A DNA stretch of 64,000 nucleotides from positions 9,313,501 through 9,377,500 of the forward strand of contig CM037596.1 of assembly GCA_021018995.1 (NCBI GenBank), in the 5' to 3' direction. Made by a program: the position numbers and the translations under genes. Positions 763-25,642 of this stretch are shown here, piece by piece. The DNA comes from Chloranthus sessilifolius (Eukaryota > Streptophyta > Magnoliopsida > Chloranthales > Chloranthaceae). Every line of letters starts with the position of its first letter. Positions within the stretch are counted from its first letter, which is position 1. Below the pieces are notes generated by a model. That model worked only from the letters and a program-made list of their open reading frames with translations. It had not been told where the DNA came from and made no database searches.

Positions 763-1918
763 CTACGATAAACTGCCAACGCCTGCAGGAACGATTCCTG
801 GAGCCATCCGCATGAGAGAAGTTTGAAACCTTGACCGTCGATCAACACCACCAAGCCTCGCATTGACCCATCCATCCAGCGCCTCAAAGGCGAAATACAC
901 CTCGGCATCAAAATCAGGGACCTCTTCGGGACGAGGTCGTCTTACACCGCCACGTTGGCATTGTGCAGGGTTAGGACGGAGAGGAGGAGGTACATCGTCA
1001 ACTACAATTGGGGGTGGCTGCACACAAAGGATCGCTTTCATGCTCTTATCCCACACATTGACACCATACTGGTAAAATTGCATGTCGCCTAACTCCTCAT
1101 CATCATAGATGGGGCAGCCGAGGTGATCCAAAAGGTGCATCACATAATGTGGGAAATGGAGGAGAATCGCTGCACGCTTAGCGGGTACGGTGGTGGTGGC
1201 TATATCACTGTGGCAACGATACATCTCCTCGAGCATCAGACCTGGCGCATCGAACCAAGTGTTTGTATGCGCAGCGTAAAGTGCAATCACCCTATTCTTG
1301 GTCCTCTCGCTGCCATGCGCGGTAGGAGGTTGTTTGCCATGACGATATCCCAAAGAAATGTCCATCAAGAACAAGTGGCACGGCCGTTGCCAAGTGGCAC
1401 CCTCCACACATATCATTGATCATGTTGTCCTGACTACGATCAATCGCGGGATTAATGTGGTGGTTCACAGGTCGAACCACATAAAAATTGAAGGCACGCG
1501 CGAGATCGGCGGCATGCAGATTATATTGCCAGTTGTCGATCTCGATGGTAATGTAGGGCATTCCTGTGGGCGATAGTGTTTCCGGTACCCATACCATTTT
1601 CTGATAAAACAGACGGATCAGGCGTGGAGAGACATCGATGGGTGGCGGGGCAAGCAACATTTCCAATCGCAAGGACTCAATGAATTCGATCGAGCAGGCG
1701 CATTCACGATGCGACGGTAGATGACGGATCGTAGAAATTTTCCGTTTGGAATCGATCGAAATAGTGCTCATTGGGGATGCATCGGATCGATCGTGGACGC
1801 GGTTGAAAGAGTGGTGGGCGGTACCGCCATTTGATCGCGTACGAGGAGAATATAGATGATTGGCTTGAAATGGAGTGGATTGAAGTCGGATGAGGGCTCC
1901 ACGGGTTGGGGCTGCCAC
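763..1918 (-). pseudogene. Athila extra 3' ORF (env-like position, 'putative plant transposon protein' type), frameshifted
   Basis: Two overlapping minus-strand frames (1292-1918 and 763-1416) make one gene with a single-base frameshift near 1395-1430. The upstream frame has PRLIRLFYQ followed by a beta-rich stretch and LARAFNFYVV. The downstream frame has RVIALYAAHTNTWFD and MLEEMYRCH, then an acidic/proline-rich C-terminus. The same order of motifs appears in the 24422 ORF of the Tekay element, so the two are homologous. The first in-frame ATG is at 1771; an out-of-frame ATG at 1830 opens a 20-codon frame whose stop overlaps it. The frame is open up to 1918 but that part includes the TATA region. 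No signal peptide or membrane span is visible, so an envelope role is not supported. Biochemical function is unknown. Confidence 0.7.
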
Positions 1919-1929
1919 TTATATAAATT
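1917..1929 (-). promoter_or_regulatory. candidate TATA box for the Athila extra ORF
   Basis: On the minus strand the sequence reads AATTTATATAAGT, about 150 bases before the first in-frame ATG at 1771 and immediately downstream of the palindrome array at 1935-2405. A start about 30 bases downstream would give a leader of roughly 120 bases. The placement parallels the Tekay element (array, TATA, extra ORF). No transcript evidence is available. Confidence 0.45.
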
Positions 1930-1934
1930 GAACC

Positions 1935-2405
1935 TCAATCGATTGAGAATGAATTCTCAATCGATTGAGAATGGTTGGGATGCCCACGCGAAGCGTTGGG
2001 CGACATCCGCGATGTGGAGGAGACGTGGCTCATCACAATTCCTCAATAAATTTCAATCGATTGAGACTGATGGGTCTATCGATTGAGGAAACCTGCTTTC
2101 GAAGAGGTGCACTGGTTAGGTGCCCTCGGAAACGAGAGCTTTAATTATCCCATTAATTCGATCGATTGAGATACCATCCTCAATCAATTGAGCCAAACGT
2201 GCTCGAAAAGTTAGCTGCCCCGATAAGATGTGTCGGTTGGCGCTTCAAATCCTAAGGACTGCATAAAATTTTATATGGTGTCAATCGATTGACACAAGAA
2301 GAGGAAAATTATGATGATGTAGGAAATTCTCAATCGATTGACAGGTACATGTCAATCGATTGATAAACAAGGGTCAATCGATTGACTGTTCACAGTCAAT
2401 CGATT
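1935..2405. repeat. palindrome array upstream of Athila extra ORF
   Basis: Eleven copies of TCAATCGATTGA or close variants: pairs at about 1935/1957, 2050/2072 and 2158/2180, a single copy at about 2280, and a run of four at about 2328-2405. Every spacer within a pair or the run of four is exactly 10 bases (for example CAGGTACATG, TAAACAAGGG, CTGTTCACAG), giving a 22-bp period while spacer sequence varies. The region 2410-2530 is A-rich and noncoding. Confidence 0.85.
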
Positions 2406-2529
2406 GAAAAACACAAAATATGAACAAAAACCAAAATAAAGACAAAAATAAAGATGAAACGAAAAATAAAACAAACTGGGTTGCCTCCCAGGAAGCGCTG
2501 AGTTTAATTGTTGTCAGCTCGACCTTTTC

Positions 2530-2762: not shown

Positions 2763-4076
2763 TTACCCAATGTGAAACTCTTTTCGAGAAATTGACTCAT
2801 CATAAAGCTGCTTGTATCTTTCTTTGTACAGTTTCGAATTTTCATACACATCGTAGCGTAGTTCGTCCAGTTCACTCAACTGTAGCCGTCGATTTGATCC
2901 TGCGGCTTGCATGTCGAAATTGAATCTTTTGATAGCCCAAAATGCCTTATGCTCTAATTCAACAGGAAGATGACATGCTTTCCCGTAGACAATTCTGAAC
3001 GGAGACATTCCAATTGGTGTCTTGAAGGCGGTGCGATAGGCCCACAGAGCATCAGAGAGCCGGTTTGACCAGTCTCTTCTATCCGATCGTACCGTCTTTT
3101 CTAAAATTCGTTTAATCTCTCGGTTCGACACTTCCACCTGACCACTAGTTTGCGAGTGATACGGTATTGCAACCTTGTGGGTGACGCCGTATTTCTTCAT
3201 TAAAGTAGCAAAATGACGGTTGCAGAAGTGCGAACCGCCATCACTAATGATCGCTCGTGGAAACCCGAATCTATTAAAGACATTTTCCTTCAGAAATTTG
3301 ACCACTACTTTGTGGTAATTTGAACGGGTTGCCACAGCTTCAATCCATTTGGAAACGTAGTCAATAGCTACGAGAATGTATGAATACCCAAAAGATGGGG
3401 GAAAAGGACCCACGAAGTCAATCCCCCAAACATCAAAAATTTCAACAATCAAAATCGGGTTAAGGGGCATCATATTTCGTTTTGAAATATTTTCAAGCTG
3501 CTGACATCTTTGGCATTCTTTGCAAAATTGAGCAACGTCACGAAAGATGGAGGGCCAGTAGAATCCGCTTTGAAGAATTTTCTGTGCAGTCTTCCGTCTT
3601 CCAAAATGGCCTCCACAGGCTCCAGCATGGCAGAAATCGAGAATGCTTAGTTGCTCTTCTGCTGGTACACATCTTCTGATGATTTGAACGGAATAGATCT
3701 TGAACAAATGTGGTTCATCCCAAAAATAGTATTTGATCTGGTAGAAAAAGAGGTTCTTATCATTCTTTCCCCATTCAGTAGGGATTTTGCCAGTGACCAA
3801 ATAATTCACGATATTGGCAAACCAAGGAACTTTCGTAGCGGTCGCGTCAATTGCCATTAATTTCTCATCCGGAAAAGTGTCCCGGATAGGTTGAGGTGTA
3901 ACCAATTCTTCAAGCAAAATGCGAGACAAGTGATCAGCCACAACATTCTCGACTCCCTTTTTATCCTTGATTTCGAAATTAAACTCTTGAAGTAGTAGAA
4001 TCCAGTGGATCAATCTTGGTTTGGCATCCTTCTTTGCCAACAAATATTTCAATGCAGAGTGGTCTGAAAAGACCAC
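2763..4076 (-). pseudogene. Athila RNase H end and integrase
   Basis: 437 codons. The N-terminus is the end of RNase H ([15 protein letters not shown]). It is followed by the integrase HHCC zinc finger ([10 protein letters not shown] then CKECQRCQ) and the catalytic core with the three acidic residues visible in [17 protein letters not shown] and [11 protein letters not shown]. The C-terminal part has [18 protein letters not shown], typical of this lineage. It would join element cDNA to host DNA. The catalytic triad is intact, but the reading frame is bounded by in-frame stops at 4083-4085 and 2763-2765, with no frameshift between them. Confidence 0.88.
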
Positions 4077-4082
4077 TATTTT

Positions 4083-4799
4083 TTATCCAAGCAGATAAGA
4101 ACGAAATTTATCCAGAGCATACACCACAGCTAATAGTTCTTTCTCAGTGGTGGTGTAGTTAAGCTGTGCATCGATCAACGTCTTACTGGCATAATAAATT
4201 ACGTGAGGTAATTTGTTCCCCCTTTGCCCTAAAACAGCCCCGATAGCGTAATCAGATGCATCACACATGAGTTCGAATGGGAGAGAATAATCCGGTGGTT
4301 GGATTATTGGTGCATTTGATAAGAGCTCACGCAGCTTCAGAAATGATTTCATGCAATGCTCATCAAATTCAAAAGGTACATCTTTACCAAGCAAGGTACA
4401 TAAAGGTTTAGCCACCTTGCTGAAATCCTTAATGAATCGCCTATAAAATCCAGCATGCCCCAAAAATGATCGAATATGTCGAACACTCTTTGGTGGGGGC
4501 AAATTGGCAATTAGGTCGACTTTGGCCTTATCCACTTCAATTCCTTTCTTGGAAACAATATGCCCCAGCACAATTCCTTGTTGAACCATGAAATGACTCT
4601 TCTCCCAGCTAAGAACAAGTTTAGAATCCACACAACGTTGTAAAACTTGTGCGAGGTGATTCAAACAAGAACCAAACGTTTTCCCAAAAATCGAGAAGTC
4701 GTCCATGAACACCTCGATGAACTTATCAATCATATCCGAAAATATGGCCAACATACATCGTTGGAAAGTAGCAGGTGCATTACATAAGCCGAACGGCAT
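4083..4799 (-). pseudogene. Athila reverse transcriptase palm and RNase H
   Basis: 238 codons starting at the RT motif MPFGLCNAPATFQ. The catalytic FMDD is at residues 31-34 (EVFMDDFSIFG), then the RT thumb, then RNase H with its first Asp in MCDASDYAIGAVLGQ and TTEKELLAVVYALDKFRSYL. The upstream neighbour (RT fingers and protease) is in the same frame but separated by TGA at 4803-4805, most simply a CGA-to-TGA change. The frame ends at TAA 4083-4085. The active sites look intact. Confidence 0.9.
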
Positions 4800-4802
4800 C
4801 CT

Positions 4803-6146
4803 TCAATATGCAAAAGTACCGTAAGGGCATGTGAATGTCGTTTTCTCTTGATCAGGTGGAAAAACGGGCACTTGATTGTATCCCGAATAACCATCAAGAA
4901 AGCAATAAAACTCTTGCCCTGCTAACTTCTCGAGGATTTGATCGATGAACGGAAGGGGAAAATGATCCTTTCTGGTAGTTGTGTTTAATTTTCTATAATC
5001 AATGCAGACACGCCACCCAGTAGTTTCACGAGTAGGCAACAATTCTCCTTTCGCAGTTTCTTTCACAGTGATTTCGGACTTTTTCAGGACAATTTGGACT
5101 GGACTAACCCATTCACTATCAGAAATCGGATAGATGATTCCAGCATCGAGTAATTTAATGATTTCCTTTAAAATGATTTCTTGCATGTTCGGATTAAGTC
5201 GCCTCTGCGGTTCTCTCGATGGTTTACTCTCATCTTCCAGATGTATTTTGTGCATACATACTGATGGGTCAATCCCTTTTAAATAAGCTAGAGTCCATCC
5301 GATAGCCTGCTTGTGATCTTGAAGCACTTTCAACAGGTCATGCTCTTGTTCTTCAGACAACGTGGATGAAATTATCACCGGAAACGTTTCTCGTGGCCCC
5401 AGAAAAGCGTATTTGAGCGATTCAGGCAACTGTTTCAATTCCACAGTTGGTGGCTCCTCAATTGATGGAGTCGGTTCAGCTTTTACTTCAATGGATAACG
5501 GTTCTATCTTAGTCACAACTTTAGATAAGTTATCATCTGGACATGATAAACTCAACCTCGTCTCTTCTGACTGCTTCCTTTCAGATCCTTTTTCTTCATA
5601 GATGGCCAACAAAGCGGTTTCAAATTCTTCTTTGGTGAGCATTGATGGTAATGCTTCATCCACCACTTCATCCATCTGATCGATGTAAAAACATTCGACC
5701 TCATCCTCATTAGGGAAATGGTTCATCGCATGAAATATGTTCAATCTGACCATGTTCCCAAAAGAAACGTCCATGACTCCCGTTCGACAATTAATGCAAG
5801 CGTTGGCAGTGGTGAGAAACGGACGTCCAAGGATGATGGGGACTTGATTAATTGATTTAACAGGTGGTTCCATGTCTAAAACAACAAAGTCCACTGAAAA
5901 GACAAACTTGTCTATTCCAACCAAAACATCCTCGATAATTCCCCTAGGTCTTCTTTCTGACCTATCTGCCAGTTGGAGTGTGACCGTCGTGGGTTGCAAT
6001 TCACTCAATCCGAGTTTCTCGTATATTGAGTATGGGATTAGATTCACACTTGCTCCTAAATCCAATAGCACTTTTCCAATTGGTTGCCCACCAATGACAC
6101 ATGGAACAGTTGGAACTCCGGTGGTCTTCGGTTTATGGGGTTTCAA
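4803..6146 (-). pseudogene. Athila protease and N-terminal reverse transcriptase
   Basis: 447 codons. Retropepsin-like aspartic protease comes first: LLDLGASVNLIPYSIYEKLG with catalytic Asp at about residue 29 and the partner motif ILGRPFL near residue 107. A variable acidic linker follows, then RT with KEIIKLLDAGIIYPISDSEW, WRVCIDYRKLN and FYCFLDGYSGYNQ, ending at PYGTFAY. The nominal start is a TTG; in the intact element this would continue from the upstream gag frame, so the start is an artefact of a frameshift near 6145-6165. Confidence 0.9.
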
Positions 6147-7205
6147 TCCAATATTGAACTGACTTGATTAGTCAGGAACACTTTCTTGGAAATATGAGTA
6201 CGCGCCTTTCGCTTACGAGTGCATAAATCTTTGAAAAATTTTGCATACTCAGGCACTTGTTTGATTGTTTCAAGCAATGGAAGATTTATCTTTACTTGCT
6301 TGAATGTTTCGAAAATTTCTTCCATTTTTGCTGGTCCCTTTCCCATTCTAGATGGAGGAGTTAGGCATTGAGGGAATGGTGCCCTTGGGACATAAGGTGC
6401 AGGTTCCATTTTTTATTCTTGTTCATGTCCTAGTTGGACAGTTGAGGGAGACTCATCCTCGATTACTTTTTCTTTTCCCTTCTCTCTTCTTTGCTCTTTC
6501 TCTTTCTCTTTTCTTTTCTCTTTCTCTGTTCTTTTCTCTGATTTATTTTCTTTCTCTTTTGCTGCTTCTCTTGTTTCCTCTTTTTCCTGATCAGATTCCA
6601 CAGGCATTTCCACTTGATTATCAACTTCTCTTCCACTTTCAAAGACTTTCATTCAACTGTTGACTATTCGATGGTCTTGCATCAGGTGGTGCTTGACCTC
6701 GAGGATTGTTGACGGGTTGGCTGGGGAGCCTACCTTCCTCTCGTTGACTCAGCTGATTTGTCAATTGACTGAATTGATCTATCATCATTTGTTGGAAAGC
6801 TTGCATGCTTCGCATCACCTTTTCCTTCAAATCAGAATCTCTAGAAACGGTAACCTGAGATTGATTAAAATTGATTTTTCGGAATCGGAATTGGATGGTA
6901 ATAAGGAGGGTTCTGAAATTAGAATTACATTGGGTAGTGGAATTACATTGTGGGCGGAAATTTTGTTGTCCACCCATTGTGTTGGCTCGCTGGTTTATCT
7001 GACCGGGTTTGGTTCGAACCACCCATCCTAAGTTGGGGTGATTTTTCCATTCCGGGTTATAGGTATTGGAGTATATGTTTTTACCCTGCCGTTGATAAGA
7101 TTGAGTCAGATTCACTTGCTCTTGAGGAGTAGGTTCATCAGGGAATAATGACAAGGTAGTGGGGCACTCATTAGCCATGTGACACAGGTGGTCACAAATT
7201 GAACA
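6143..7205 (-). pseudogene. Athila gag C-terminus: zinc knuckle, linker, pre-protease region
   Basis: A CCHC zinc knuckle (CSICDHLCHMANEC, CX2CX4HX4C) lies at about 7163-7205. It is followed by NPEWKNHPNLGW, a Gln/Asn-rich segment, then a very Lys/Glu-rich linker (6413-6652) and the conserved pre-protease module FKQVKINLPLLETIKQVPEY (ORF 6143-6409). Frames shift near 6645 and near 6150, and an in-frame TAA lies at 6413-6415. The Lys/Glu linker is element-encoded low complexity. Confidence 0.8.
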
Positions 7206-7251
7206 CGATGGGGGTGGCAGAGCTTTAGCTTGCTTGGAGCTAACAACATAT

Positions 7252-8214
7252 TCATTTGCTTGGACAACATATCAACCTTTGTTGATAGATCGTATTATTT
7301 TTGACATTATACAATCCATCTCTTGTCAACACATGAGATTTAGATGCCAAATCCAAGTTAGTTCGCCCCAGTGTTTCACTTTGTATCGAAGTTTGGTATA
7401 ACTTCTCAAACAATGCCCACAATTCATCAGCTTCTTTTGTGGCACATGATCCACCACACGATGCACCAACCATGCGTCTCTCTTCAGGAATCAGTCCATT
7501 ATAAAAACTTTGGACCTGTTGCCATCTTGGAACTTGATGATTTGGACAACTCTTAATCAATTCCTTAAAATGTTCCCAACATTCATGGAATGTTTCAGTA
7601 GGTTGTTGGGAAAAGAATTGAATCTTCTGACGCAACTCAATGGCTTTGGTCATGGGAAAATATTTTTTAAGAAACTGACGGTATAGCTCTGCCCAACTCT
7701 GAATAGATTGCGGTTCTAAGGAATAAAACCACATTTTTGCCTTGTCCCTTAAAGAGAAAGGAAAGAGTCGGAGTTTAGCTATCTCATCAGTGACATTGTG
7801 GACTCTGAACATTTTGCATACCCCAGTGAATTCATTTAGATGAACGTGCGAATTTTCATTTGCTAACCCATGGAAAATTGGTAGCATTTGGATAATCGCT
7901 GATTTGAATTCATAGTGGTTTCCTGGAATGGGATCATGCATTATACATTCCTGATCCTCGTAAAATCCAGGATCATTATAATATTCGAGTGTTCTAGGGC
8001 CCTCATTGTAATTGTTATTCCCATCATTTCCATTATTTCTATTATTGCCATTATTGATATTCTGGTTGTTCCCATTCATTTCTTGCCTTTGATCAGCCAT
8101 GGTATCAGTATGATGATACTGATTCCTTTGAATTCTACGATTCTCTCTACAAGATCGTTCGATCTCAAGATTAAATGGTAGCAGATGTGGGTGATGAGAA
8201 CGAGTAAAGCTCAT
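7252..8214 (-). pseudogene. Athila gag, capsid region
   Basis: 320 codons. An Asn/Gly-rich N-terminus is followed by the retrotransposon gag domain: FKSAIIQMLPIFHGLANENS, LRLFPFSLRDKAKMWFYSL, FLKKYFPMTKAIELRQKI and ETFHECWEHFKEL. It would form the particle and package RNA. Two starts are possible: ATG at 8214, and ATG at 8100 (MADQRQEM), which better fits the usual gag start. Reading frame is lost near 7300-7330, before the zinc knuckle. Confidence 0.88.
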
Positions 8215-9414
8215 ACACCACGCTCATAAACAGGAATTGAAGAATCCAAAACAAATCCACAAAATAAGCTCAATCGATTGCAGCAAAGGTCTCAATCGAT
8301 TGACAGAAGCACACTTAAAATTTCACAGAAATGACTTTATCAGTCAATCGATTGAAGAACTGTTCTCAATCGATTGAGGTTCAAAGGTCAAAGCAAGTTA
8401 ACACAAGAATTTCAGCCGAAATGGCAAACACAAAATTTTTGTCAATCGATTGACAGAGGAATGTCAATCGATTGAAAGAAAAGCAAAGATCACAACAGAG
8501 AATATTTCAGTCTCAATCGATTGAACCTGAAGCTTCAATTGGTTGAGTTCTAATATGAACAGTGGCCAAAATAAGAAGAAAAGAAAAGCAAAACAAGATA
8601 AATTAATTAATTTTTTTTTTTTTTTTTTAAATTCAAATTTCAAAAGTTAAAATTAAAATTTCAAGATTAAAATTAGAAATTAAAATTTTAAATCTAATGG
8701 CAATCCTAAGAATCTTATCTAAAAGAGAAAAATAAGGAAAAAAATAAAAGATTCCTAAATTTCCTAAGGAATGTATCCTAAATTTATAAACTTCCTAAAA
8801 AAAAATTAATAACTAATTTTAGAAAATCCTAGAATATCTAAAAGAGGAAAATAAGGAAAAAGAATACTACTAAAATAAGAAGTCCTAAAAACCTAAACTT
8901 CCTAAAAGAGTCCTACACAAACTTACCTAAGAGAGAAAAATAAGGGAAAGAAGATTTTGCAAATCAAAAATCTAAATATTAGTTTGTTTATTTTTTTTTT
9001 AAATTCAAAAATCAAAATTCACACAAGAAAATCAAAATTTAATTTAGAAATTAAATTTCAAAAATTCTAATTGCAAAAATTTAAGTTCAAAAATCAAAAA
9101 AATCAACCTTTGAGCACCAAATTTCAGATTTCAAATCCACAAGCTTCCAAATTTTCAGAATTAACGATTTTTTTTTTTTTTTATATATATATTTTTTAGT
9201 GTCAATCTATTGACAAGTTAGTGCCAATCGATTGACACAGAAGTGCTGATAAAAATACAAGACACAGTCAATCGATTGACAAGAAGGTTTCAATCGATTA
9301 TGCATCAATAGTTCTAGAGAATAGAGTCAATCGATTGAGGAAGAATTCTCAATCGATTGACTGCTAAAAACAAAAAAAATCCCTAATCCGAATTAATCAA
9401 AATTTCACCGAAAT
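8215..9414 (-). repeat. Athila 5' leader with palindrome pairs and AT-rich core
   Basis: Untranslated leader between PBS and gag. Palindrome pairs with exact 10-base spacers occur at about 8270/8292, 8342/8364, 8440/8462, 8512/8534 (second copy degenerate), 9200/9222, 9266/9288 and 9326/9348. The centre (about 8590-9190) is A/T-rich with homopolymer runs and repeated CCTAAGAATCT/TCCTAAA-like words. No ORF of note. Confidence 0.8.
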
Positions 9415-9432: not shown

Positions 9433-9438
9433 AAAACT

Positions 9439-10623
9439 TGATCGATTTTAAATGTAACCCTTGCAAGTGCACAAGATCTATTGCAGTATGGCAAGAACCA
9501 GGGTGTCGAACCCACAGGAAAATCTGAATTTTTAATTAATTCTTTCAGGGATTTAAAAACATCCCCAAGAAAGTACCAAGGGGCAGATTCAATTTACCAA
9601 AAATTTATCACTTTTTCCTAAATGTAGAAAAATAAATTAATCTAAATTACTAATTACCGATGAATCTAAGAACAATATTTAAATAAGATCAAGAAATATG
9701 CTATCCCAGATTTGTACCCGCCTTTCATTAAAGCATCATTCACACTATCACCATCATTCATTTATAAAAATGATTTGAAATAAAGTACGATCATCAATCC
9801 GCCATACCCTATCTAAAAACAATGACTCGGCCTATCATTGCGGTATGAGTCATGTAAGAAGCATAGCGTATCTTGTGATGTGTAGATCAAAACAATAAAA
9901 ATATTAGACTATGGTATTAATCATAAATATGGGTACTTATCTGGGGATCGCATCTTTCCCGATCTACTGATTTAGCCGCTCATCTTTGGTGTATGATCTC
10001 CTTGTTCATTCAAAGCCATTCCTCTTTTTATTTCTTCCCAAGAGATATTTGTTTACAATGCTCTCTCCTAAATACAATCTATGCTTTAAAAGAAAATAAT
10101 GCAAATCCTAGGTACAATCTACCCTGATCAAAACCCTAGAAGAAAGAGAGAAGAAGACCTTAAAAAGATGAAAAGAAGTTCCCCAAAGACAAAAAAATCT
10201 CAAAAGATCTCAACACACAGTGCTATTCAAAGCTTTAGCTTCCTTTTTATAATGGCCGAGCACACCTAAACGTAATTGCCTCAATCGATTGAGCCAGAAG
10301 TCTCAATCGATTGAATTTGAGTTCGAATTTCTTTAGGGCACTTCTGCCTTATGTGTCAATCGATTGATTTTCATGTCTCAATCGATTGATTTTCAGGGCT
10401 GAAGTTTTATATCATCTGTCAATCGATTGACAATGATTCCTCAATCGATTGACTCTTCAATGTAAAGTCTCCTTTCTTGATGGATATTGATTCTCTTCTT
10501 GGATCTCAATGCTTCTTTGGACCTTTTTGTCCATAGCTCTTGCATAGCCTTTAATTTCCTTCTTTTAGGCTTTTGAACGATCTAATGGTCGGAAACACCT
10601 GTAAACATCAAAACCTCACAACA
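9439..10623 (-). repeat. Athila 5' LTR (right boundary approximate)
   Basis: The inner end is fixed by the PBS: on the plus strand the LTR begins TGATCGATTTTAAATG. The outer end is uncertain; ACA-ending candidates lie near 10620-10623, and LINE A sequence resumes only by about 10685. Three palindrome pairs with exact 10-base spacers lie at about 10282/10304, 10355/10377 and 10418/10440. The rest is AT-rich noncoding sequence. The partner LTR is outside the window, so divergence cannot be judged. Confidence 0.7.
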
Positions 10624-15690: not shown

Positions 15691-16282
15691 GGCATACTGT
15701 AATACCTCAAAAAATCACGTTAAACAGTGACCTCGGGATCTGTTCCCGATTGGTCACAGGTTTGACCAATTAGGAGTCCAATGGTTAGCATAGAGTGTGA
15801 TGAATGGATGAGATGTAATAGTTGACTGACTGCGTGGTGCGTGATGTGAATATGAAGTCGCATACACCTATCGCGGTGTATGTGCTCAACACACAAGTGA
15901 GGAAAGAGATAAAAGGGTTTAATAACCCTAAAATCTGTATTTGGTTGTTGAGAGAGGAGTAAAGAAGAGAGAGAGAAGAGTAAAGAGGTTGAGCAAGAGT
16001 TATTGTGAGTGATTGGAAGGGAGATTCTAGCATTAAAGAGACCGATTCGACGCGGAGAATCCGTTCAAGCCAAAGCTGGAACCCTAGCCTTTCCAACCAT
16101 TGATTTGAAATCAATTTGAGATTTATTGAAGGTAAGATTTTATAGTTTAAAATGCATGGATTAAGGGGTTAAATTGTAGTTAGAATTGGTGTAAAATGTG
16201 GGATAAGAGCTTGGAGAAATGGAGGAAAAAATTAAGGAAAGAGATTGAGAAGAACAGCCAAAAGGGGGCTGAATCTGGCAAT

Positions 16283-16690
16283 TTCGATTAATCGAAATTG
16301 GCCAAGAAGTTGAAAAGTCACAGGACCCCGATCTCGATTAATCGAATTCAGTTTCGATTAATCGACCTTGGATCTCGATTAATCGATTTAAGAATTGATT
16401 AATCGACTGGGAGCCTACAGTGGACTCCAGTGAAGAAAAGAAATGGGCTTGATGAAATCGACTAATCGAAATAAAGATTCGATTAATCGATTTGTAATTT
16501 CGATTAATCGATTTGGGATCGATTAATCGATTTTGGAAACTCGATTACTCGAATTGAGAATCGACTTGATAGAGCAGAGAATTTCGATTAATCGAATTGG
16601 GTTTCGATTAATCGAATGGAAATCTCGATTAATAGATTTGAGATTCGATTAATCGATATTGACTTTTGATTAATCGATTAATCGACTGGG
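16283..16690. repeat. TCGATTAATCGA palindrome array in 5' LTR
   Basis: About 15 copies of the 12-bp palindrome TCGATTAATCGA or one- to two-base variants, in groups of three to five, with spacers of 7-10 bases, so starts step by 19-22 bp, mostly 20-21. Groups are separated by 45-70 bases of other sequence. The 3' LTR holds the same array with one extra unit near 26857. Confidence 0.88.
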
Positions 16691-17010
16691 CCAGTTTATG
16701 TTGACTTCTGAGTTTGACTTTGAGATTCTTGGGGGGTCTTGGACCTCCTTTATTGCATCCTTAGTGATGTGTTTCACATGTTATGTGGTACCATAGGTGG
16801 TACGTGTGAGCAAGTGCACAAGGAGCCACGTGGGACCTTGATGGGTTGATCAAACGAAGACTTGAGGTAGGGAACTCCTTGAACATGTACCTTATTTTAC
16901 AAGAGCATGTATATAGTGATATAGATTTGAAATTCCAAATGTTTTATTGCTTAAAGAGTTGGGAAAAGTGTATGTGTGTGTGTGATATAAATAAAAGTAA
17001 TCATAATGAG

Positions 17011-17404
17011 TCATCCCCAGGGGATGAAGAAGTAAAGAGATTAGAGCATCAAGTGTGATACAAGTGAATGGATACATCCCAGGGATGTATCCACGATTGA
17101 ATCATGTTTGATAGGGCCTAACTGATATAAGATAGCACATTTACACGGTGAATAACTATATGTAAGGCACCGATATTTTTGTTATTTGAGGTTTGATAGG
17201 GTACCCCACCGACGTGGCGGGATATCCACGACTAACACGGCAGGATATCCGTGACCGATACGGCGGTGAAACCGTAGGCTAGTGCGGAGGCTTATCCGTA
17301 CACAGTAAGCACACCCCAGGGGTGTTGATTTGAGACAAGTGAAACCCCGCCACCAATCCCCAGGGGAAAGGGGCTTGGGTACTATTTGTATTCCCAGGGA
17401 ATAC
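17011..17404. promoter_or_regulatory. five CCCAGGG-centred palindromes in Tekay LTR
   Basis: TCATCCCCAGGGGATGA (17011-17027), a 23-base perfect palindrome about its central A at 17070-17092, ACACCCCAGGGGTGT (17311-17325), TCCCCAGGGGA (17357-17367) and GTATTCCCAGGGAATAC (17388-17404). Arms differ between sites but stay self-complementary. A one-base centre is too tight for an RNA loop without opening pairs, so symmetric protein sites are likelier than hairpins. Confidence 0.55.
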
Positions 17405-18175
17405 GTTAAAAGTGTCTATATAGATGACGATGATGGGTATCTCATCGGGGCTCGATGCTATATTGCTCGGGGATTACTTAAGTTGAAAGTTTAAGTTTTG
17501 CTTTAGGCCTTTTCAGCATCATTCATGAATAAATAAAAGACATGAGTAAACTACCAGTAAAATGTAATGATTTTTAACTGTTTTCATCCGTAATTGCATA
17601 GACACATCATGCATGGCATATCATGGAATATATGTGAGTAATAATTTATATGTTCAACTGTGTTTTGTTCCCTATTGAGCTAGGATGTAGCTCACCCTAT
17701 AGACTATATGTCGCAGGTCCACTACTAGCAGTTGTCGAGGCTTCAGGAGACGCTGACCCCGGTGAGTCGGACCTTGCGGCCGGTGAAGAGTTGGAGCCAC
17801 CTCCTGAGGACTTCTTCTAGAGGACTCTGTTGTGCCACTTTGAGGGTTTTTGGGGAGATTTTGTACGGCTTGGTATGTCAAGCCTTGTTTGATTAAACAA
17901 TGTACATGTATAAATTGAGATTTATTCTTTTGGGGCGAACCATCCGTGATGAATTGCTATCGTCGATGGTTCGGATCGGTTCTCCATTCATGCAGAGGCA
18001 TGAGGGTAGAACTGTCTTTTGAGAAATGCTTTTATATAGATTTAAATTTCGCAGCTTCATTTACTATTTCATTTTTGCTTGATATGCCAATGTTCCGTGC
18101 TTAGGAAAGGGGCACGGTCAAGATGATCATGCTGATGGCACGAGTTTCGGGGTGTCGAAATCTGGGCTGTCACAG

Positions 18176-18189
18176 TTGGTATCAAAGCC
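18176..18189 (+). other. primer-binding site, initiator tRNA-Met type
   Basis: TTGGTATCAAAGCC, one base from the common TTGGTATCAGAGCC, one base after the 5' LTR end. Confidence 0.85.
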
Positions 18190-18266
18190 ATTTCTTTTAG
18201 CAATTCTGACAATCGTTCTTTTTGGTCATAACATAGGGGCTTCTGCTAACGAAACTTTAGTTTCAA

Positions 18267-19651
18267 ATGCAGCCGCAAATGTCATCTAGAGGAACAGGCC
18301 GACCAAGGGGAGGCCAATAGAGGAGTCTACGTAGTGGAGATGATTACATCTCTCCTACTAATAGAGTGCCTTTAGGAGTCCGAGGCCCGTGGGCGTGAGT
18401 AGTAGACAGCATGATGAAGGGGATCGAGATCGTCAGGATCAAGATCTAGGAGAACAAGAGAGAGTGAGAGAAAGACAGGAAGATAGAGAGGAGCGACAAA
18501 GGATGATGCACACTATGGAGACTATGGCAGCTGCCATGGCACAACAAGTCGCATCCTTTGCAGCTCATGCATCAAGAGAACAGCAGCCACCTACACCACA
18601 TGTAGGACCTGCGCTACCTGTGCCCTCATCCTTTACAGAGTTTAGGAGGATGAGACCTCCTTCATTTTCTGGGCAGGCAGACACCATGGCCGCTGAGAAC
18701 TGGCTTATGGAGATGAAGAAAGTCTTTAGCGTGCTGACATGCACGGAAGATGAGAGTGTGAGATGGGCAGCTTATATGTTGGATGGGGAGGCTGGGCCTT
18801 GGTGAAAGTCCGTGATACGGACTCAGGCTCAGGAGACCCCAGAGTTGCCTTGGACTTGGGAGGAGTTTGTTGAGGAGTTCAACAAACAATATTTTTCGGA
18901 AGTGGTGAGGAACCAGCTTGAGATACAATTTCTACAGTTAGTGCAAGGGAGAATGACATTGAGAGAGTATGGGGTGGAGTTTCTACGACTTGCCCGTTTT
19001 GCTCCGGATTACGTTGCTACCGACGTGATAAAATCCAAGAGGTTTTAGCAAGGTTTGAAGCCTAAGGTGAGGGGAGGCGTAGCTCCATTTCAGCTGAGGA
19101 CCTATGAAGAGGTCATGAGTAAAGCATTGGTCGTGGAAGAAGAGAATACGAATAGATATAGACAGAGGGAGCAGCAGAGAGGAGGAAATGAATAGGGAAG
19201 GACGGGGAACTACGAACCGGTGAACAAAAAGTCAAGGTTCGTGGCCCAAAATCAGAGACCACAATTTTAAGGAGGTTTCGGAAGGCCGGCGCAACAACAA
19301 CACCAACAGAGATTTCCACTACTTGCGTCGGGGAGACCTTTACGCTATGAGAGCCCTGCCATGTCTACTGGCGCTACTATCACACAGGGTTCTCGTAATG
19401 TTTCTTCTGCACCTCGGGAGACTTGCGCAAAGTGTGGAAAGCCTCATAGAACAGTGGATTACAGAGCGGGAACTAGGGGTTGTTTCCGATGTGGCAAGGT
19501 GGGCCACTTGATCCAGGATTGCCCGGGCGGATAAAGAAAGCGGTTTGATTCGCGACACCACGACCCATTCAAGCAAGGAAACCGATCGTTCAGGGGAGAG
19601 CTTATGCAGTTAATGCTCAGGAAGCAGGAAACGTGCATGACGTCATCCAAG
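18267..19651 (+). pseudogene. Tekay gag
   Basis: A probable start at ATG 18267 (MQPQMSSRGTGRPRGG) leads after a stop and frameshift into the main frame from about 18389. That frame carries a charged coiled-coil-like N-part, PPSFSGQADTMAAENWLMEM, WTWEEFVEEFNKQYF and GRMTLREYGVEFLRLARFAP (gag domain), then the CCHC knuckle GCFRCGKVGHLIQDC at about 19478-19522. In-frame stops fall at 18803 (TGA), 19046 (TAG), 19193 (TAG), 19268 (TAA) and 19532 (TAA). A one-base shift near 19540-19590 moves the reading to GRAYAVNAQEAGNVHDVIQ, which runs to the putative splice donor. Confidence 0.85.
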
Positions 19652-19818
19652 GTGAGACTCTTTTAAATTAAAGAAATTTCCATTTCATTAAAATTTTAGA
19701 TAGAGAAAGTGCATGCATTAGGATTTGTATAGATTCTTTTTCACAATACTAAATTTATATGTGAATTAGGGGTGTAAATTGATGTGTAAATTATTATATG
19801 TATGTATGTATATTATAG
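19652..19818 (+). other. putative intron between gag and protease
   Basis: Starts GTGAGA after CAAG and ends TTATAG before GTACTT. It is AT-rich and 167 bp long. Joining its flanks gives codons for DVIQ-G-TLTIYEKG, the continuity expected between gag and protease in chromoviruses; unspliced, the frame stops within a few codons. An AT-rich insertion with chance GT-AG ends is the alternative. Confidence 0.6.
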
Positions 19819-20222
19819 GTACTTTAACTATATATGAAAAAGGATGCTTCGTTGGTTATGACACTAGAGTGTTGATAGACCCAGGGTCTACCCACTCATT
19901 CGTCACTCCATGTTTCGCCAAGAGGATGAAGATTGTTCCAGAGGCGTTGGACTTCATCTTATCTGTGTCTATTCCAACTGGAGAGTTAGTGGACACGGAG
20001 TTAGCTTACAAATCCATCATTGTAGCAGTTCGAGACCTAGAGGTGCATGAATTGGAAGCGAAGTTGATACTGTTAGACATGCAAGGGTTTGATGTAATCC
20101 TTGGCATGGACTGGTTGGCGCAGCACTATGCAACCGTCGATTGCAAAAATAAGGTAGTCATTTTCAGACCCAACACAAGAAGATCATTTCGGTTTCAAGG
20201 AGTGAGGTCGTCATACATGCTA
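19819..20222 (+). pseudogene. Tekay protease
   Basis: Aspartic protease with catalytic LIDPGSTHSFVTP and the downstream FDVILGMDWLAQHYATVDC. The frame continues from gag across the putative intron. It ends at a stop at 20223, where a shift of one base is needed to enter the RT frame (the linker [14 protein letters not shown] is in the next frame). Confidence 0.88.
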
Positions 20223-20229
20223 TGATCTC

Positions 20230-21117
20230 GTGATGGTGAAAATGATCAGAAAGGGTTGCAGTGGATACTTGGCTTTCTTAAAGGAGGACAAGGAAGAAAA
20301 GAATGTCATTTCTGAGATAGCAGTTGTGCGAGACTTCGCCGACGTGTTTCCGGAAGAATTGCCTGGATTATCTCCAGAAAGAGAAGTAGAATTCGCCATC
20401 GACTTAGCACTAGGAACGGAGCCTATTTCAAAAGCGCCATATCGAATGGCTCCTGCTGAGTTAAAGGAGTTAAAGGAACAACCACAAGAGCTTATGAACA
20501 AGGGGTTTGTTAGACCGAGCGTGTCTCCATGGGGAGCACCGGTCTTTTTTGTCAAGAAGAAAGATGGGTCAATGCGGCTATGCATTGACTATCGACAGTT
20601 AAACAAACTCACCGTGAAGAACCGCTACCCTTTGCCTAGAATTGACGATTTGTTCGATCAACTGCAAGGAGCAAGGTATTTTTCCAAGATCGATCTGAGA
20701 TCTGGATACCATCAGTTGCGAGTCAAAGCAGAAGACATCCAGGAGACAGCTTTTAGGACACGGTATGGACACTATGAATTCCTTGTGATGCCGTTTGGGT
20801 TGACGAATGCTCCGACGTCATTTATGGATCTGATGAACCGAGTGTTTAAACCACACTTGGGCTCCTGCGTCGTAGTGTTCGTTGATGATATATTGATATA
20901 CTCCAAATCCAAGACGGAACACGAAGAACATTTGAGGATTGATCTACAGACGCTACATGGACACCAATTGTATGCCAAACTCAGTAAATGTGAGTTTTGG
21001 TTGGAAGAGGTTAGCTTTTTGGGACATGTTGTCTCAAAGCATAGTGTCACTGTAGATCCAGCAAAGATAGAAGCAGTGGTTAAATGGGAGCAACCAAAGA
21101 CGGTGACCGATGTCTGA
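20230..21117 (+). pseudogene. Tekay reverse transcriptase
   Basis: 295 codons. [12 protein letters not shown] and [14 protein letters not shown] lead into [58 protein letters not shown], and catalytic [13 protein letters not shown] with Asp-Asp at residues 219-220 (20884-20889). Copies element RNA into DNA. It stops at TGA 21115-21117 in [17 protein letters not shown], where related proteins have Arg (CGA to TGA). Confidence 0.92.
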
Positions 21118-22044
21118 AGTTTTCTGGGCTTAGCAGGCTATTATCGATGTTTCGTCGAGGGGTTTTCAAAGATATCGGGACCTCTCACAAAGCTGACACG
21201 AAAGGATTCAAGATTTGAGTGGAGTGAGGCATGCGAGAAGACTTTTCAAGAACTCAAGACGAGACTCACTTCGGCTCCAGTGCTAGTGATTCCTTCAGGC
21301 AGTGGAGGATACGCAGTGTACAGAGATGCGTCATATAATGGTTTAGGTTGTGTGCTCAACCAAAACAAGAAGGTGATAGCTTACGGATCAAGACAGCTGA
21401 AAGAACACGAGAAAAATTATCCGACTCATGACTTGGAACTAGCAGCAGTCATTTTTACGCTGAAGATTTGGAGACATTACTTGTATGGTGAGACTTTTGA
21501 GATTTTCACCGATCATAAGAGCCTCCAATACTTGTTTACACAGAAAGAGCTCAACATGAGACAGCGCAGATGGATGGAATTCCTCAAGGATTATGATTGC
21601 TCCATACAGTACCATCCAGGCAAGTCGAATGTAGTAGCCGATGCATTGAGTCGGAAGGGTTCAGCTCAGTTAGCTTGTTTAATTTTGGGTATGCACCGAT
21701 GGAAATTATTAGAAGACCTGGCACTCTACGATGCGAACATTGAGTCAAAAGCTACCGGATCCTTTTTGGCTAACATATCGGTAAAGCCAGTGATATTTGA
21801 GCATATCCACGATCTACAGATGAAAGATCCGACATTAACAAAGATTCATCAAGACGTGAGTGAAGGCATCAGGTCGGACTTCTCAGTTAAAGAAGATGGT
21901 TCTTTATTGTTTAAGGGCCGTCTATGCATTCCGGACAATGCCGATCTAAGACGAACAATTCTTGATGAGGCCCATAAGTCAAATTATGCTATCCACCCTG
22001 GTAGCACCAAGATGTATCAAGACTTGAAAAAGAACTACTGGTAG
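21118..22044 (+). pseudogene. Tekay RT thumb, RNase H, integrase zinc finger
   Basis: Same frame after the [20 protein letters not shown], then RNase H with [35 protein letters not shown] and [10 protein letters not shown], then [16 protein letters not shown] and the first half of the integrase HHCC finger ([14 protein letters not shown]). It ends at TAG 22042-22044 in KKNYW-stop-RG, where Trp (TGG) is usual. Confidence 0.9.
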
Positions 22045-23198
22045 AGAGGACTGAAGCAAGACGTGGCCGAATATGTGTCACGGTGTTTGACTTGTCAGCA
22101 AGTGAAGATTGATCATAGACATCCTACTGGACTATTGCAGCCTTTACCAATCCCAGAATGGAAATGGGAATCAATCTCGATGGATTTCATTGTTGGATTG
22201 CCCCGTACTGCCAAGAGACACAATGCCATTTGGGTCGTCGTGGACCGATTGACCAAATCAGCACACTTTTTGCCGTACAATATGTGTATACGGCAGGAAG
22301 ACTGGCAGATTTATATATGAAGGAGATCGTAAGGTTACATGGGATTCCAAGCAGCATAGTTTCAGATCGTGATCCACTATATACGTCCAAGTTTTGAAAG
22401 AAATTTTAAGAAGGAATGAGAACATGACTAGACTTTAGTTCAGCTTTCCATCCTCAAACTGATGGGCAGACAGAGCGAGTAAACCAAGTAATAGAAGACA
22501 TGCTCAGAGCGTGCATGCTTGATATGCAAGGATACTGGGATGAGTATCTACCGTTGCTCGAATTCGCATACAACAATAGTTTCCAAATGAGCATTGGCAT
22601 GGCACCGTATGAAGCTCTGTATGGACGACGATGCAAATCACCCCTCAATTGGGAAGAAATAGGTGAGAAATTTGTTTTAGGGCCAAAACTACTTGAAGAC
22701 AACGCCACTGTCGTTCGAATAATCAGAGAAAGGCTGAAGTCAGCACAGAGTAGACAGAAAAGTTACGCCGACATGAAGCGAACTAGTGTTGACTATAAAG
22801 TGGGTGAGCACGTGTTTGTGAAAGTGTCACCTATGAAAGGCGTAATGAGATTTGGCAAGCGAGGAAAGTTAAGCCCACGTTATGTTGGACCATTTGAAAT
22901 TTTGGGACGCGTAGGTGAAGTTGCGTATCGCATTGGCTTACCACCGCTCTTTCATCGGGTACATAACGTTTTCCACATATCAATGCTCAGAAAGTATGTG
23001 AACGATCCCTCTCATGTGTTAGGGAAACAACCTATGAAGATGTGTGAGGACATGAGCATGATAGAGGAACCAGTGGAAATCTTGGATCGAAAGGAACAGG
23101 TACTGCGCACTAAAGTGATTCCCTTAGTGCTTGTTCGGTGGAACAATCATCCAAAGGAAGAAGCTACTTGGGAACGAGAGGCCGATGTGAAAGAATAA
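22045..23198 (+). pseudogene. Tekay integrase with C-terminal chromodomain-like segment
   Basis: Integrase CLTCQQVK finger half, [10 protein letters not shown] (first Asp), [13 protein letters not shown] (second Asp) and HPQTDGQTERVNQVIEDML (Glu). The frame shifts near 22280 and has stops around 22396-22440. From 22500 a clean ORF of 232 codons carries the rest: YNNSFQMSIGMAPYEALYGR, PRYVGPFEILGRVGEVAYRI, HNVFHISMLRKY and a chromodomain-type ending VRWNNHPKEEATWERE. Chromodomains of such integrases are thought to steer insertion to heterochromatin. Confidence 0.9.
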
Positions 23199-23439
23199 TA
23201 TCCAGCCTTATTTCCAACGACGTGAGAATCCAATATAAACCACAAGTATGTTTGTGGAATTCTCACAATACTTGTAAATCAATGGAAGTCTTGATCAAAG
23301 TATGATTTAAGGAACAGATTTTGTATGCACATGACCAAGTGTATGTGTTTCTATGAAACTATGAGACACTTGATGTCAAAACTGCCAAAAGTAATCAAAG
23401 AACAAAGGAAATTGAAGATCAGCAGAAATTGGGCAAAAC
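23199..23439 (+). other. Tekay post-pol spacer
   Basis: About 240 bases without coding or repeat structure that I recognise, between the pol stop and the palindrome array. Confidence 0.6.
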
Positions 23440-24178
23440 CGATTAATCGAATTTCAAATCGATTTGGAATTTCGATTAATCGATTTTGTTCGATTAGTCG
23501 ACTGGCATGTGCCAGTGACTGGAAATTGGGATGAGAGTTAGAACAGACACAGAATGCAATTTCGATTGATCGAATTATAATTTCGATTAATCGATTTGGG
23601 ATCGATTAATCGATTTTGGGAATTCGATTAATCGAATTGGGTATTCGATTAATCGAACTACATGTTCGATTAATCGAACAAACTGGGAATGTTAGAAGAA
23701 ATTAGGAATGAATTAATGAAATTTCGATTAATCGAGGAGGTTTCGATTAATCGATTTACATAAAGGGACCATGAAAATTCTAAGTCAGAGAAACGATTTC
23801 GATTAATCGAAGTAGAATTCGATTAATCGATTTGAAATTTCGATTAATCGAACCATAGTTCGACTAATCGAATAACTTAAGGAATCCTGAAATTTTTGGA
23901 AGTTACTGCATGATTTCGATTAATCGAAGTGAATTTCGATTAATCGATTTTGAAATTTTGATTAATCGAAATGGATTTCGATTAATCGACTGGCTCGCGC
24001 CAGTGAGCTCTAAAACTTAAATTTTTAAACGGATACGATTTCGATTAATCGAAATGTTTTCGATTAATCGAATTTGACTTTCGATTGATCGATTTGGGAA
24101 ATCGATTAATCGATTTTGCGCGGCTTAACCTAGTTTTGAATCTCAATTAATCGATTCTGAATTTTGATTAATCGAGTC
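23440..24178. repeat. TCGATTAATCGA palindrome array upstream of extra ORF
   Basis: Roughly 28 copies of TCGATTAATCGA or close variants in runs of two to five. Starts are mostly 19-22 bp apart within runs, with 30-70 bases between runs. The array stops just before the TATA box at 24185. It is not a plain satellite, because the bases between copies vary in sequence and slightly in length. Confidence 0.88.
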
Positions 24179-24184
24179 GAGGCC

Positions 24185-24361
24185 TATATATTGAAATTTG
24201 GGGATTTTCTTTCCCATTCGAATCATTTGAGCTTGGAGATTTTTTTGGGCACTTCATCTTCTTCTTCTTCTCCAACCATCTGGCGCCCTAGGGTTTGCAT
24301 CTCCGTGGTTTTCGGCTCGTATTCAAATCATAACGCCTCCAAAACCCACGGTAAACCCTAA
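24185..24361 (+). promoter_or_regulatory. candidate internal promoter and leader of Tekay extra ORF
   Basis: TATATA at 24185-24190, about 235 bases before the ATG. A CT-rich leader (CTTCATCTTCTTCTTCTTC, near 24252) and telo-box words follow (AAACCCTAA at 24353-24361 and AAACCCTA on the other strand near 24288). This combination is typical of plant pol II promoters and 5' leaders. It suggests a separate subgenomic transcript, which is inferred. Confidence 0.5.
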
Positions 24362-24421
24362 TTTCATACTTTTCCTTCAATTTGAGCTAGCTAAACCCTT
24401 GATTTTTACTATTTTCTAAAA

Positions 24422-25642
24422 ATGCCGCCCAAAACCCGGTTGTCTTCGAAGATTTCGAAGGCAACCTCTAAGCTACCGGTTCGGCATAAGAACGCCGCAC
24501 GACCACCACCTACCCCATCGCCGGTGAGGACTCCATCACCGTCGGCATCGGAGACCACCTCCGGTTCGACGAGCACATCTTCGCGCGAGTCTTCCCGCGA
24601 GTCCACCCCCATGCCCCCACCACCCACTAATGTGGTGCAACCAAATGAATGGTGGGCCGCAAATACCTTTGAGGTCGAGTACCTCATCGACCCTACCCTT
24701 TTCACAAATCCCAATGTACCGGGCGAGACCCAATGGGCTCGTAATTACCTTAACAATGCCGGTCTCGGCAACCTTCTCAAACCAATCAGGGGTTCCTACT
24801 ACCCTAGATTGGTGAGATTATTTTACCAAGGGCTTGTGGATGGCCCGACGGACGATGTGATCAAGACCACCATCAAGGGTCGAGACTACACGATCACACG
24901 TCGCCACGTCCACGAGGTGCTTGAGTGCTACCTCGACTTTACCCCTGAGACCACCCTATTCCCACCCTTTGAGGAGGACCCTCGCTTTGAGGAGGTCATG
25001 ACCCGCATGACCAACGGCAAAAAGGGGTCGGGATCCTCCATAAAGAGGGTTGACCTTTCCCACTATATGTGGATGCTTGACTCGGTGATCAAGTGCAACC
25101 TCTACCCTATGCGCCACGATACCGAGCGCGTGGAACGAGTGCAACACGCACTCTACGTGGCCTTCTGTGGCCGGTGGTTCGACACCACCATGGTCATCCT
25201 TGAGGGGATGAGGTATATTAAGGGCAAACTGATGAAGGGCAACCTCCGGCCCAAGGAGAAGATGTCCTATGCTCGCCTCATCTTGAGCATGTTGGAGTGC
25301 TACTCCAACGATCCCTCCTACACCATCTCACCTCACGAGGTAAGGGCTACGAACTGCGTGAAGGCATTCTCCAAGTCTGCTCAAGCGGACCCGGCTCCGG
25401 GTCCCGCCCGCCCGGCAGCAGCCGCACCGCCACCACCCCCACCACCACAGCAGGACCCACCGTGGGGGCACACCCAAATGAGCCTTGAGAGAGGGCCACC
25501 TCTCATACTGCGGCCTCACCGACACCGCCCGCTCACTCCGCACTCGCTACACCCACCTCATCATACCGCCGACGCGCCGCCCCATCCGGTCCTACCATTG
25601 ACGACGTGTTGGCTCACATGGAGGCCAACAACGAGCGGATGA
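24422..25642 (+). CDS. extra ORF of the Tekay element ('putative plant transposon protein' type)
   Basis: 406 codons from AAAAATGCCGCCC. The N-terminus is basic and Ser/Pro-rich (residues 1-75). The conserved core has NEWWAANTFEVEYLIDPTLF, YYPRLVRLFYQGLVDGPTDD, GRDYTITRRHVHEVLECYLD, RVQHALYVAFCGRWFD, VILEGMRYIKGKLM and YARLILSMLECYSND. A poly-Pro tail follows. The core is uninterrupted, unlike gag-pol. It shares PRLxRLFYQ, ALYxA...WFD and LEEM/LEGM motifs in order with the Athila extra ORF. Composition is GC-rich beside AT-rich surroundings. The last 50 or so codons are in a shifted frame; the expected tail lies at 25606-25965. No membrane span or signal peptide is seen. Function is unknown; a nucleic-acid-binding or anti-silencing role is conjecture. 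Confidence 0.7.
   Translation: MPPKTRLSSKISKATSKLPVRHKNAARPPPTPSPVRTPSPSASETTSGSTSTSSRESSRESTPMPPPPTNVVQPNEWWAANTFEVEYLIDPTLFTNPNVPGETQWARNYLNNAGLGNLLKPIRGSYYPRLVRLFYQGLVDGPTDDVIKTTIKGRDYTITRRHVHEVLECYLDFTPETTLFPPFEEDPRFEEVMTRMTNGKKGSGSSIKRVDLSHYMWMLDSVIKCNLYPMRHDTERVERVQHALYVAFCGRWFDTTMVILEGMRYIKGKLMKGNLRPKEKMSYARLILSMLECYSNDPSYTISPHEVRATNCVKAFSKSAQADPAPGPARPAAAAPPPPPPPQQDPPWGHTQMSLERGPPLILRPHRHRPLTPHSLHPPHHTADAPPHPVLPLTTCWLTWRPTTSG

Follow-up and report, generated by a model that had tools for sequence, protein, structure and literature searches.

Short palindromes repeated in front of an additional gene are known from Sireviruses, for which this layout was already described in 2010 (PMC2829016). 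Palindromic repeats were found in 13 of 21 of these elements, in the long terminal repeat (LTR) of all of them, in the linker of all nine with an envelope-like (ENV) gene and in that of none of the four without it; moreover, 77 of the 79 linker copies lay upstream of ENV (PMC2829016). Bousios et al. took the linker repeats as support for an internal ENV promoter, which was not conclusively identified, and matched the repeats mainly to the sites of stress-related factors (PMC2829016). Tobacco Tnd-1, a Sirevirus without ENV, carries eight LTR copies of ACAATCGATTGT, which contains the core CAATCGATTG (PMC2829016). Here, we describe a comparable arrangement in a stretch of 64,000 nucleotides (the window) from Chloranthus sessilifolius (GenBank assembly GCA_021018995.1, contig CM037596.1, positions 9,313,501 to 9,377,500), where an Athila-like and a chromodomain (Tekay-type) LTR retrotransposon each carry arrays of a palindrome of their own ahead of an extra open reading frame (ORF).

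Precedents for such extra ORFs come from several other systems. The transposon protein VANC binds short motifs that recur in the non-coding DNA of its own element (PMC5735166), and a paper of 2026 asks whether Athila and Tork ORFs might modulate silencing, citing VANC as an example (PMC12844716). The additional or ENV ORFs of Athila have been associated with PF20167 or PF03078 (PMC11728184, PMC6317226), and a 3' sense ORF of sunflower Athila carries PF20167 (PMC11728184). In Arabidopsis Athila6A, the promoter of the ENV ORF has been defined, and nearly all copies keeping it are targets of RDR6-dependent silencing (PMC4977677). An "envelope-like" role is the prevailing guess for the extra genes of plant LTR retrotransposons, and a review calls it controversial. 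In the literature covered (titles, beginnings of abstracts and passages, with few subscription papers and no supplementary tables), palindrome arrays were unreported for Athila or Tekay, and no PF20167 ORF after pol was reported for a Tekay element. What is new here is the exact 22-bp pairing of palindromes in the Athila-like element, with unrelated spacers, and the runs at 18–22 bp in the Tekay-type element.

As in Sireviruses, each element carries many copies of one palindrome, some within the LTR and others in the linker that precedes the extra gene. With up to two mismatches, the Athila-like element has 39 sites of TCAATCGATTGA (core CAATCGATTG) and the Tekay-type element has 58 sites of TCGATTAATCGA (core CGATTAATCG), and the two linker arrays lie where a reading of the sequence alone (the sequence-only reading) had placed them (Table 1). 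The Athila palindrome is also found in the 5' leader and beyond the extra ORF. Exact 12-mers numbered 27 for TCAATCGATTGA and 37 for TCGATTAATCGA in the window, against a mean of 0.0 each in 40 first-order Markov resamplings of it. Nine of the 48 TCAATCGATTGA matches were set aside, namely two in the Athila gag-pol region (5458 and 6761), four inside Tekay arrays and three far outside, as were two of the 60 TCGATTAATCGA matches (5844 and 62928). The matches of the Athila motif to the four Tekay sites and the two gag-pol sites exist only at two mismatches; at one mismatch or fewer, neither motif was found in the other element, in either gag-pol region, in either extra ORF or in the remaining window. 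The palindromes are thus as private to their elements as had been proposed. The Athila core is the Tnd-1 core. A CGG-CCG core, present in 12 of 13 Sirevirus motifs, is seen in neither CAATCGATTG nor CGATTAATCG, and Tnd-1 with CAATCGATTG is the published exception (PMC2829016).

Twenty of the 38 intervals between Athila sites are exactly 22 bp, whereas random placement of sites in the five array regions gave 0.83 such intervals on average and never more than 6 (20,000 trials), and all sites except that at 2281 (38 of 39) have a partner at this distance. The 20 spacers are no more alike (similarity of 4.09/10) than column-shuffled spacers (4.18/10). Because the spacers are unrelated while the interval is exact, the spacing itself looks kept. 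In the Tekay-type element, 41 of 57 intervals measure 18–22 bp, most commonly 21 bp (19 intervals) and then 20 bp (12 intervals). Both 22 bp and 18–22 bp approximate two helical turns, which would place neighbouring sites on the same face of the DNA. For Sirevirus repeats, the accessible text mentions no fixed interval (PMC2829016), in contrast to the 22-bp pairs here. After the palindromes had been masked, no similarity was found in 21 pairs of seven array regions (BLASTN, E ≤ 0.05, four scoring schemes), a search that is blind to the 7–10-base spacers between sites, for which the spacer comparison fills the gap in the Athila-like element only; the positive control, the 5' against the 3' LTR array, was found under every scheme. 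Without masking, identity between the LTR and linker arrays of Tekay reaches 85% over an alignment of 120 columns. We rejected the idea that the arrays are copies of each other because the masked arrays share nothing detectable.

In both linkers, the order is array, TATA box and extra ORF, as the sequence-only reading had described, with the Tekay-type TATA box and ORF at the places it gave. The gap between the last palindrome and the TATA box is exactly 9 nt in each linker and 29 nt in the Athila LTR; the difference of 20 bp is suggestive, with three values only. A TATAWA start within 15 nt downstream of a random point of the window has a chance of 2.8% (plus strand only). The C+T content 30–230 nt past the linker TATA box is at percentile 0.97 (Tekay) and 0.94 (Athila). 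The Tekay leader at 24280–24400, before the extra ORF, holds AGGGTTT and AAACCCTAA, of which AGGGTTT also occurs in the leader of the Athila LTR; we take these motifs to resemble those of plant gene leaders.

Base composition differs between the two sets of arrays. The ratio of observed to expected CpG is 2.51 (LTR) and 2.88 (linker) in the Tekay arrays, compared with 0.73 in Tekay gag-pol, and Sirevirus arrays, whose LTR copies lie before the TATA box, are likewise tied to CpG-rich stretches (PMC2829016). The Athila arrays, unlike those stretches, are only mildly CpG-rich (0.87–1.23 against 0.70 in gag-pol), and the extra ORF (1.00) and the part of the window from 29 to 58 kb (0.94) are similar. 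CpG transitions make up 10 of 23 deviations from the Tekay motif, of which the four CpG bases are one third (the 23 are not fully independent, some being common to both LTRs), and 3 of 14 deviations from the Athila motif. Such deviations fit methylation and decay of these copies.

Because an array, a 9-nt TATA gap and a C+T-rich leader precede the extra ORF in both elements, we read the linker as containing an internal promoter. Our favoured explanation, which we regard as probable, is that the arrays are phased sites of a dimeric factor, which would drive this promoter and also, in Athila at least, the LTR. The linker array would be a cis-regulatory block of binding sites for a sequence-specific dimeric factor, and would precede an internal RNA polymerase II promoter from which the extra ORF is transcribed into an mRNA of its own. 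Through the copies of the site in the LTR, this factor would control the genomic transcript as well. In Athila, two palindromes 22 bp apart would form the unit, occupied by two dimers on the same DNA face, while in Tekay the sites would be used in runs at 18–22 bp. Promoter activity, protein binding and cooperativity are what we infer for the arrays. A separate promoter for an ORF after pol, as proposed here, is known from Athila6A; unlike here, no palindrome array is mentioned for that promoter in the accessible text (PMC4977677). If true, the explanation would unite Sireviruses, Athila and a chromodomain element under a common design of control. The exact 22-bp Athila pair predicts binding in pairs on the same face, and a kept 22-bp interval could be checked in any plant genome by sequence alone.

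Several observations weigh against this explanation. The sample consists of two elements. The Sirevirus repeat is missing in at least six ENV-bearing elements and is thus not needed for the ENV gene (PMC2829016). The C+T content past the Athila LTR TATA box is unremarkable (percentile 0.76), and the Tekay LTR array lies 225–301 bp, not 9 nt, ahead of the next TATAWA (16910 and 16986). No TATA box was seen after the Athila arrays at 8270–8546, 9202–9360 and 119–467, so that arrays are not only promoter-proximal, and no promoter role is apparent for those in the leader and past the ORF. Both extra ORFs are interrupted, with the coding sense resuming in another frame. Finally, the palindrome pairs also form stable hairpins, which the protein model does not require.

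The extra ORFs contain the two motifs, PRLxRLFYQ and ALYxA...WFD, by which the sequence-only reading had joined them in one family, as PRLIRLFYQ in Athila and PRLVRLFYQ in Tekay, and as ALYAAHTNTWFD and ALYVAFCGRWFD. The kinship holds in a looser form. PF20167 (Transposase_32) was matched by the Tekay ORF and by the second piece of the Athila ORF, in all cases below the curated cut-off of 45 bits (37.7 for the Tekay domain, 36.1 for the whole Tekay ORF and 17.8 for the second Athila piece) but with significant E-values; the ORF at 1292–1918, which holds the first Athila piece, had no Pfam match. The family was absent from the seven other ORFs of the nine in the scan, the Tekay ORF at 21280–22044 being outside the scanned set. 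In local alignments to the Tekay domain, the Athila pieces scored 55 and 65, above the maxima of 500 shuffles each (52 and 50) and above all eight control ORFs of the window (25 to 45), the best of which is not far under the first piece. These alignments are collinear, of low identity and short (31 and 35 residues). Multiple alignments misplaced the Athila pieces and were discarded, so that the homology rests on the local alignments and Pfam. Together, these comparisons support the view that the two extra ORFs are distant relatives.

The Athila ORF does lie below position 1918, where the sequence-only reading had put it; 1918 itself is a GTG overlapping the TATA region, and an in-frame ATG is at 1771. 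In the Tekay ORF, the coding sense appears to resume in another frame at 25606–25965. The GC content of third codon positions is 0.67 in the Tekay extra ORF against 0.43–0.48 in the gag-pol pieces, and 0.50–0.55 against 0.34–0.43 in Athila, which fits separate histories of the extra genes. Like the sunflower Athila ORF, the Athila ORF here is 3' and in sense orientation (PMC11728184). In this window, a 3' sense ORF of the PF20167 family is present in the chromodomain element too, whereas the ORF of sunflower Tekay is located on the 5' side of gag and had no match to a known domain (PMC11728184).

Pfam scans and a PDB sequence search revealed no DNA-binding domain in the extra ORFs. The nine PDB matches of the Tekay ORF at E up to 10 (best E 0.0034, on a proline-rich region) and the single one of the second Athila piece (E 0.033) were set aside as marginal. 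The sequence-only reading had called for profile and structure comparisons; Pfam links the ORFs distantly, and the AlphaFold models are too low in confidence to be of use (mean pLDDT 41.3 and 40.5). A protein collection that may hold few plant proteins gave no homologue of either the Tekay ORF or the second Athila piece. Viral contigs held no palindrome pairs and no relative of the Tekay ORF; genome contigs (viral and prokaryote search) gave no such relative either, and 19 pattern matches failed in tblastn.

The favoured explanation has two special forms, which differ in the origin of the factor. For the first, in which the arrays recruit a host dimeric transcription factor and the ORF is merely the downstream gene, we see roughly even chances. 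Host factors are commonly used by plant LTR promoters, and the absence of a recognisable DNA-binding domain in the extra ORFs agrees with this form. The core CAATCGATTG in the LTR copies of ENV-less Tnd-1 points to a factor that is not encoded by such an ORF, and the sites to which Sirevirus repeats were mainly matched are those of stress-related factors (PMC2829016). On the other hand, the two elements of one genome have no common motif, and among the papers listed for the letters of the palindromes, none apart from the Sirevirus paper names a plant factor for them in its title.

In the second form, put forward by the sequence-only reading, the product of the extra ORF would bind the palindromes of its own element as an activator or as a VANC-like anti-silencing factor. 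This is possible, with a chance clearly below that of a host factor. The motif is private to each element within one genome, the sites are non-coding and stand ahead of the protein's own gene, and ORFs of one family are paired with different motifs. VANC itself sets the precedent of a transposon protein binding its own non-coding repeats, and VANDAL elements share with those here a dense short motif in non-coding DNA, another motif in a related family and an extra protein gene (PMC5735166). The Tekay ORF as read is basic (isoelectric point of 9.5, net charge of +13.8), its last part, with several basic residues, being probably off-frame; the Athila pieces are not (7.0 and 6.3). Against a self-encoded factor stand the latter values, the missing DNA-binding domain and the Tnd-1 core in an element without ENV (PMC2829016). 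VANC carries DUF1985 and DUF287, and for the extra ORFs only PF20167 was met among Pfam matches up to E = 10 in five pieces, where filters remove most matches above about 0.1. Further differences are that VANDAL is a MULE DNA transposon, while the elements here are LTR retrotransposons; that the VANC21 motif is non-palindromic with copies facing one way (PMC5735166), while the motifs here are palindromic and so without orientation; and that binding and demethylation have been demonstrated for VANC (PMC5735166), while the elements here are known from sequence alone. The boldest version, in which retrotransposons would have their own counterpart of VANC in the PF20167-type ORFs of Athila and Tekay-type elements, with each protein binding the palindromes of its element as a dimer of dimers on one face and switching on and keeping open its own gene and the LTR, is tentative and rather doubtful. 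If it were true, then, given the similar arrangement in Sireviruses, three lineages of LTR elements would have arrived at this strategy. If either these proteins or a single host factor bind the arrays, one binding assay per element would be enough to test what the extra genes do.

An action in RNA or single-stranded DNA, where each pair would be a 12-bp inverted repeat with a 10-nt loop serving packaging, the triggering of silencing or stability, appears unlikely, even though the pairs have the features of hairpins. Two single pairs fold at -19.0 and -23.8 kcal/mol (z -5.1 and -6.7), and the leader stretches 8255–8390 and 9195–9340 (minus strand) form much more stable folds than shuffled sequences do (z -5.1 and -7.1). 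The inner flanks of Athila pairs are complementary across the spacer at position 1 (13/20, p = 0.003) and position 3 (10/20, p = 0.014), and pooled over positions 1–3 (32/60 against 21.7 in shuffles, p = 0.001) and 1–4 (38/80, p = 0.014); the same test gave no extended symmetry for single palindromes. The effect is weaker in the Tekay-type element (27/56, p = 0.008 for two positions; 38/84, p = 0.057 for three; 44/112, p = 0.043 for four), and the p-values for both elements are those of single, uncorrected tests. This symmetry suits a dimer of dimers or a hairpin, and it is confined in Athila to the first and third positions (p = 0.68, 0.78 and 1.00 at positions 2, 4 and 5), with three overlapping pairs at 2330–2407 that are not independent in the test. 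Arm changes occur in 9 of the 20 pairs and none is compensated, one pair having G opposite G. In one leader stretch, palindromes fold onto far-off copies instead of their partner; an exact 10-nt loop is not required by a hairpin, and the Athila LTR array precedes the TATA box. Moreover, no correlation between targets of DCL3-dependent silencing and palindromes was seen in Arabidopsis (PMC4977677). With the Athila leader folded between the primer-binding site (PBS) and gag, gag translation would have to cope with structure.

Still less probable is neutral growth, that is, a spread of palindromes without function by slippage or gene conversion, with TATA boxes arising by chance. Parts of the arrays are read by TRF as tandem repeats with periods of 19–22 and 41–44, and four pairs of Athila spacers agree at 8 or 9 of 10 bases. 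However, the spacers are unrelated overall despite the exact interval, the masked arrays lack similarity, the sites are restricted to non-coding DNA and the TATA gap is an equal 9 nt in both linkers. Athila ORFs are often called envelope-like, but such a nature of the extra ORF is highly improbable: although it lies in sense after pol and before the 3' LTR, where env-like ORFs have been described, no membrane-spanning stretch was found in the pieces scanned separately (best 19-residue Kyte-Doolittle mean of 0.99 for Tekay and of 1.02 and 0.93 for the Athila pieces, against 1.68 in a control pol ORF).

Table 1 Features of the two elements, with positions in the window
Feature	Position	Strand	Remarks
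Athila-like element	left part of window, 3' LTR off window	-	
Athila-like array beyond extra ORF	119..467	-	8 sites = 4 pairs
Athila extra ORF, second piece	763..1416	-	other frame; PF20167 profile positions 79-176, 17.8 bits, E 0.0033
Athila extra ORF, first piece	1427..1771	-	ATG 1771; holds PRLIRLFYQ; inside longer ORF 1292-1918
Athila TATA box TATATAAG	1918..1925 (1925-1918)	-	exactly 9 nt past last palindrome
Athila-like linker array	1935..2407	-	11 TCAATCGATTGA sites (≤2 mismatches); integrase to extra ORF interval
Athila-like gag-pol, in pieces	2763..8214	-	no palindrome at ≤1 mismatch
Athila-like gag; integrase	8214-7252; reaching 2763	-	ORF list, domain scan
Athila-like array, PBS to gag interval	8270..8546	-	8 sites = 4 pairs
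Athila-like array directly past PBS	9202..9360	-	6 sites = 3 pairs
Athila-like 5' LTR array	10281..10452	-	6 sites = 3 pairs; 29 nt ahead of TATAAAAAGG; LTR limits by eye
Complete chromodomain (Tekay-type) LTR element	15698..28750	+	flanked by target duplication
Tekay-type 5' LTR array	16284..16685	+	16 TCGATTAATCGA sites
Tekay-type linker array	23439..24175	+	25 sites
Tekay-type TATA box TATATATT	24185..24192	+	exactly 9 nt past last palindrome; C+T-rich leader next
Tekay extra ORF	24422..25642	+	406 aa; PF20167 at residues 114-264, 36.1 bits, E 7.6e-9
Tekay-type 3' LTR array	26836..27271	+	17 sites

The names Athila and Tekay are provisional labels taken from the sequence-only reading. That reading had called the two elements unrelated; they are apparently different lineages of Ty3/gypsy, while Sireviruses are Ty1/copia. 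In both elements, the reverse transcriptase (RT) precedes the integrase-type domains, which is not the Ty1/copia order. The PBS of the Athila-like element, TGGCGCC starting at 9432, is one that we presume to fit Athila. The LTRs of the Tekay-type element measure 2477 and 2501 bp, and the 5-bp target duplication on both sides is CATAC, as read from the printed flanks. At its PBS position (18177) the element has TGGTATC, which we take to be of the Met-tRNA type. Its chromodomain match is weak (PF00385, 21.8 bits, below the cut-off of 25.1, E 1.8e-4), and SH3_Tf2-1 was matched at E 2.9e-25 in the Pfam scan.

Further sequences of the window may belong to other elements. Between the two elements, at 10849–12264 (minus strand), RT-like ORF pieces resemble a fragment of a non-LTR retrotransposon (long interspersed nuclear element, LINE), as judged from the translation. 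A possible third LTR element at 59689–63112 (minus strand) has gag-, protease/RT- and integrase-like ORF pieces, again judged from translations, and neither palindrome at one mismatch or fewer; direct repeats at 58541–58739 and 63762–63960 (85%) are possible ends of its LTRs. At 47851–48480, GATACGTATC and CGAAATTTCG each form one pair 26 bp apart amid related sequences, and these mixed palindromes possibly mark another element with its own motif. Tandem repeats include a 415-bp unit in 2.4 copies at 43482–44477 and a 152-bp duplication (100% by TRF) beside a TA run at 39519–39820.

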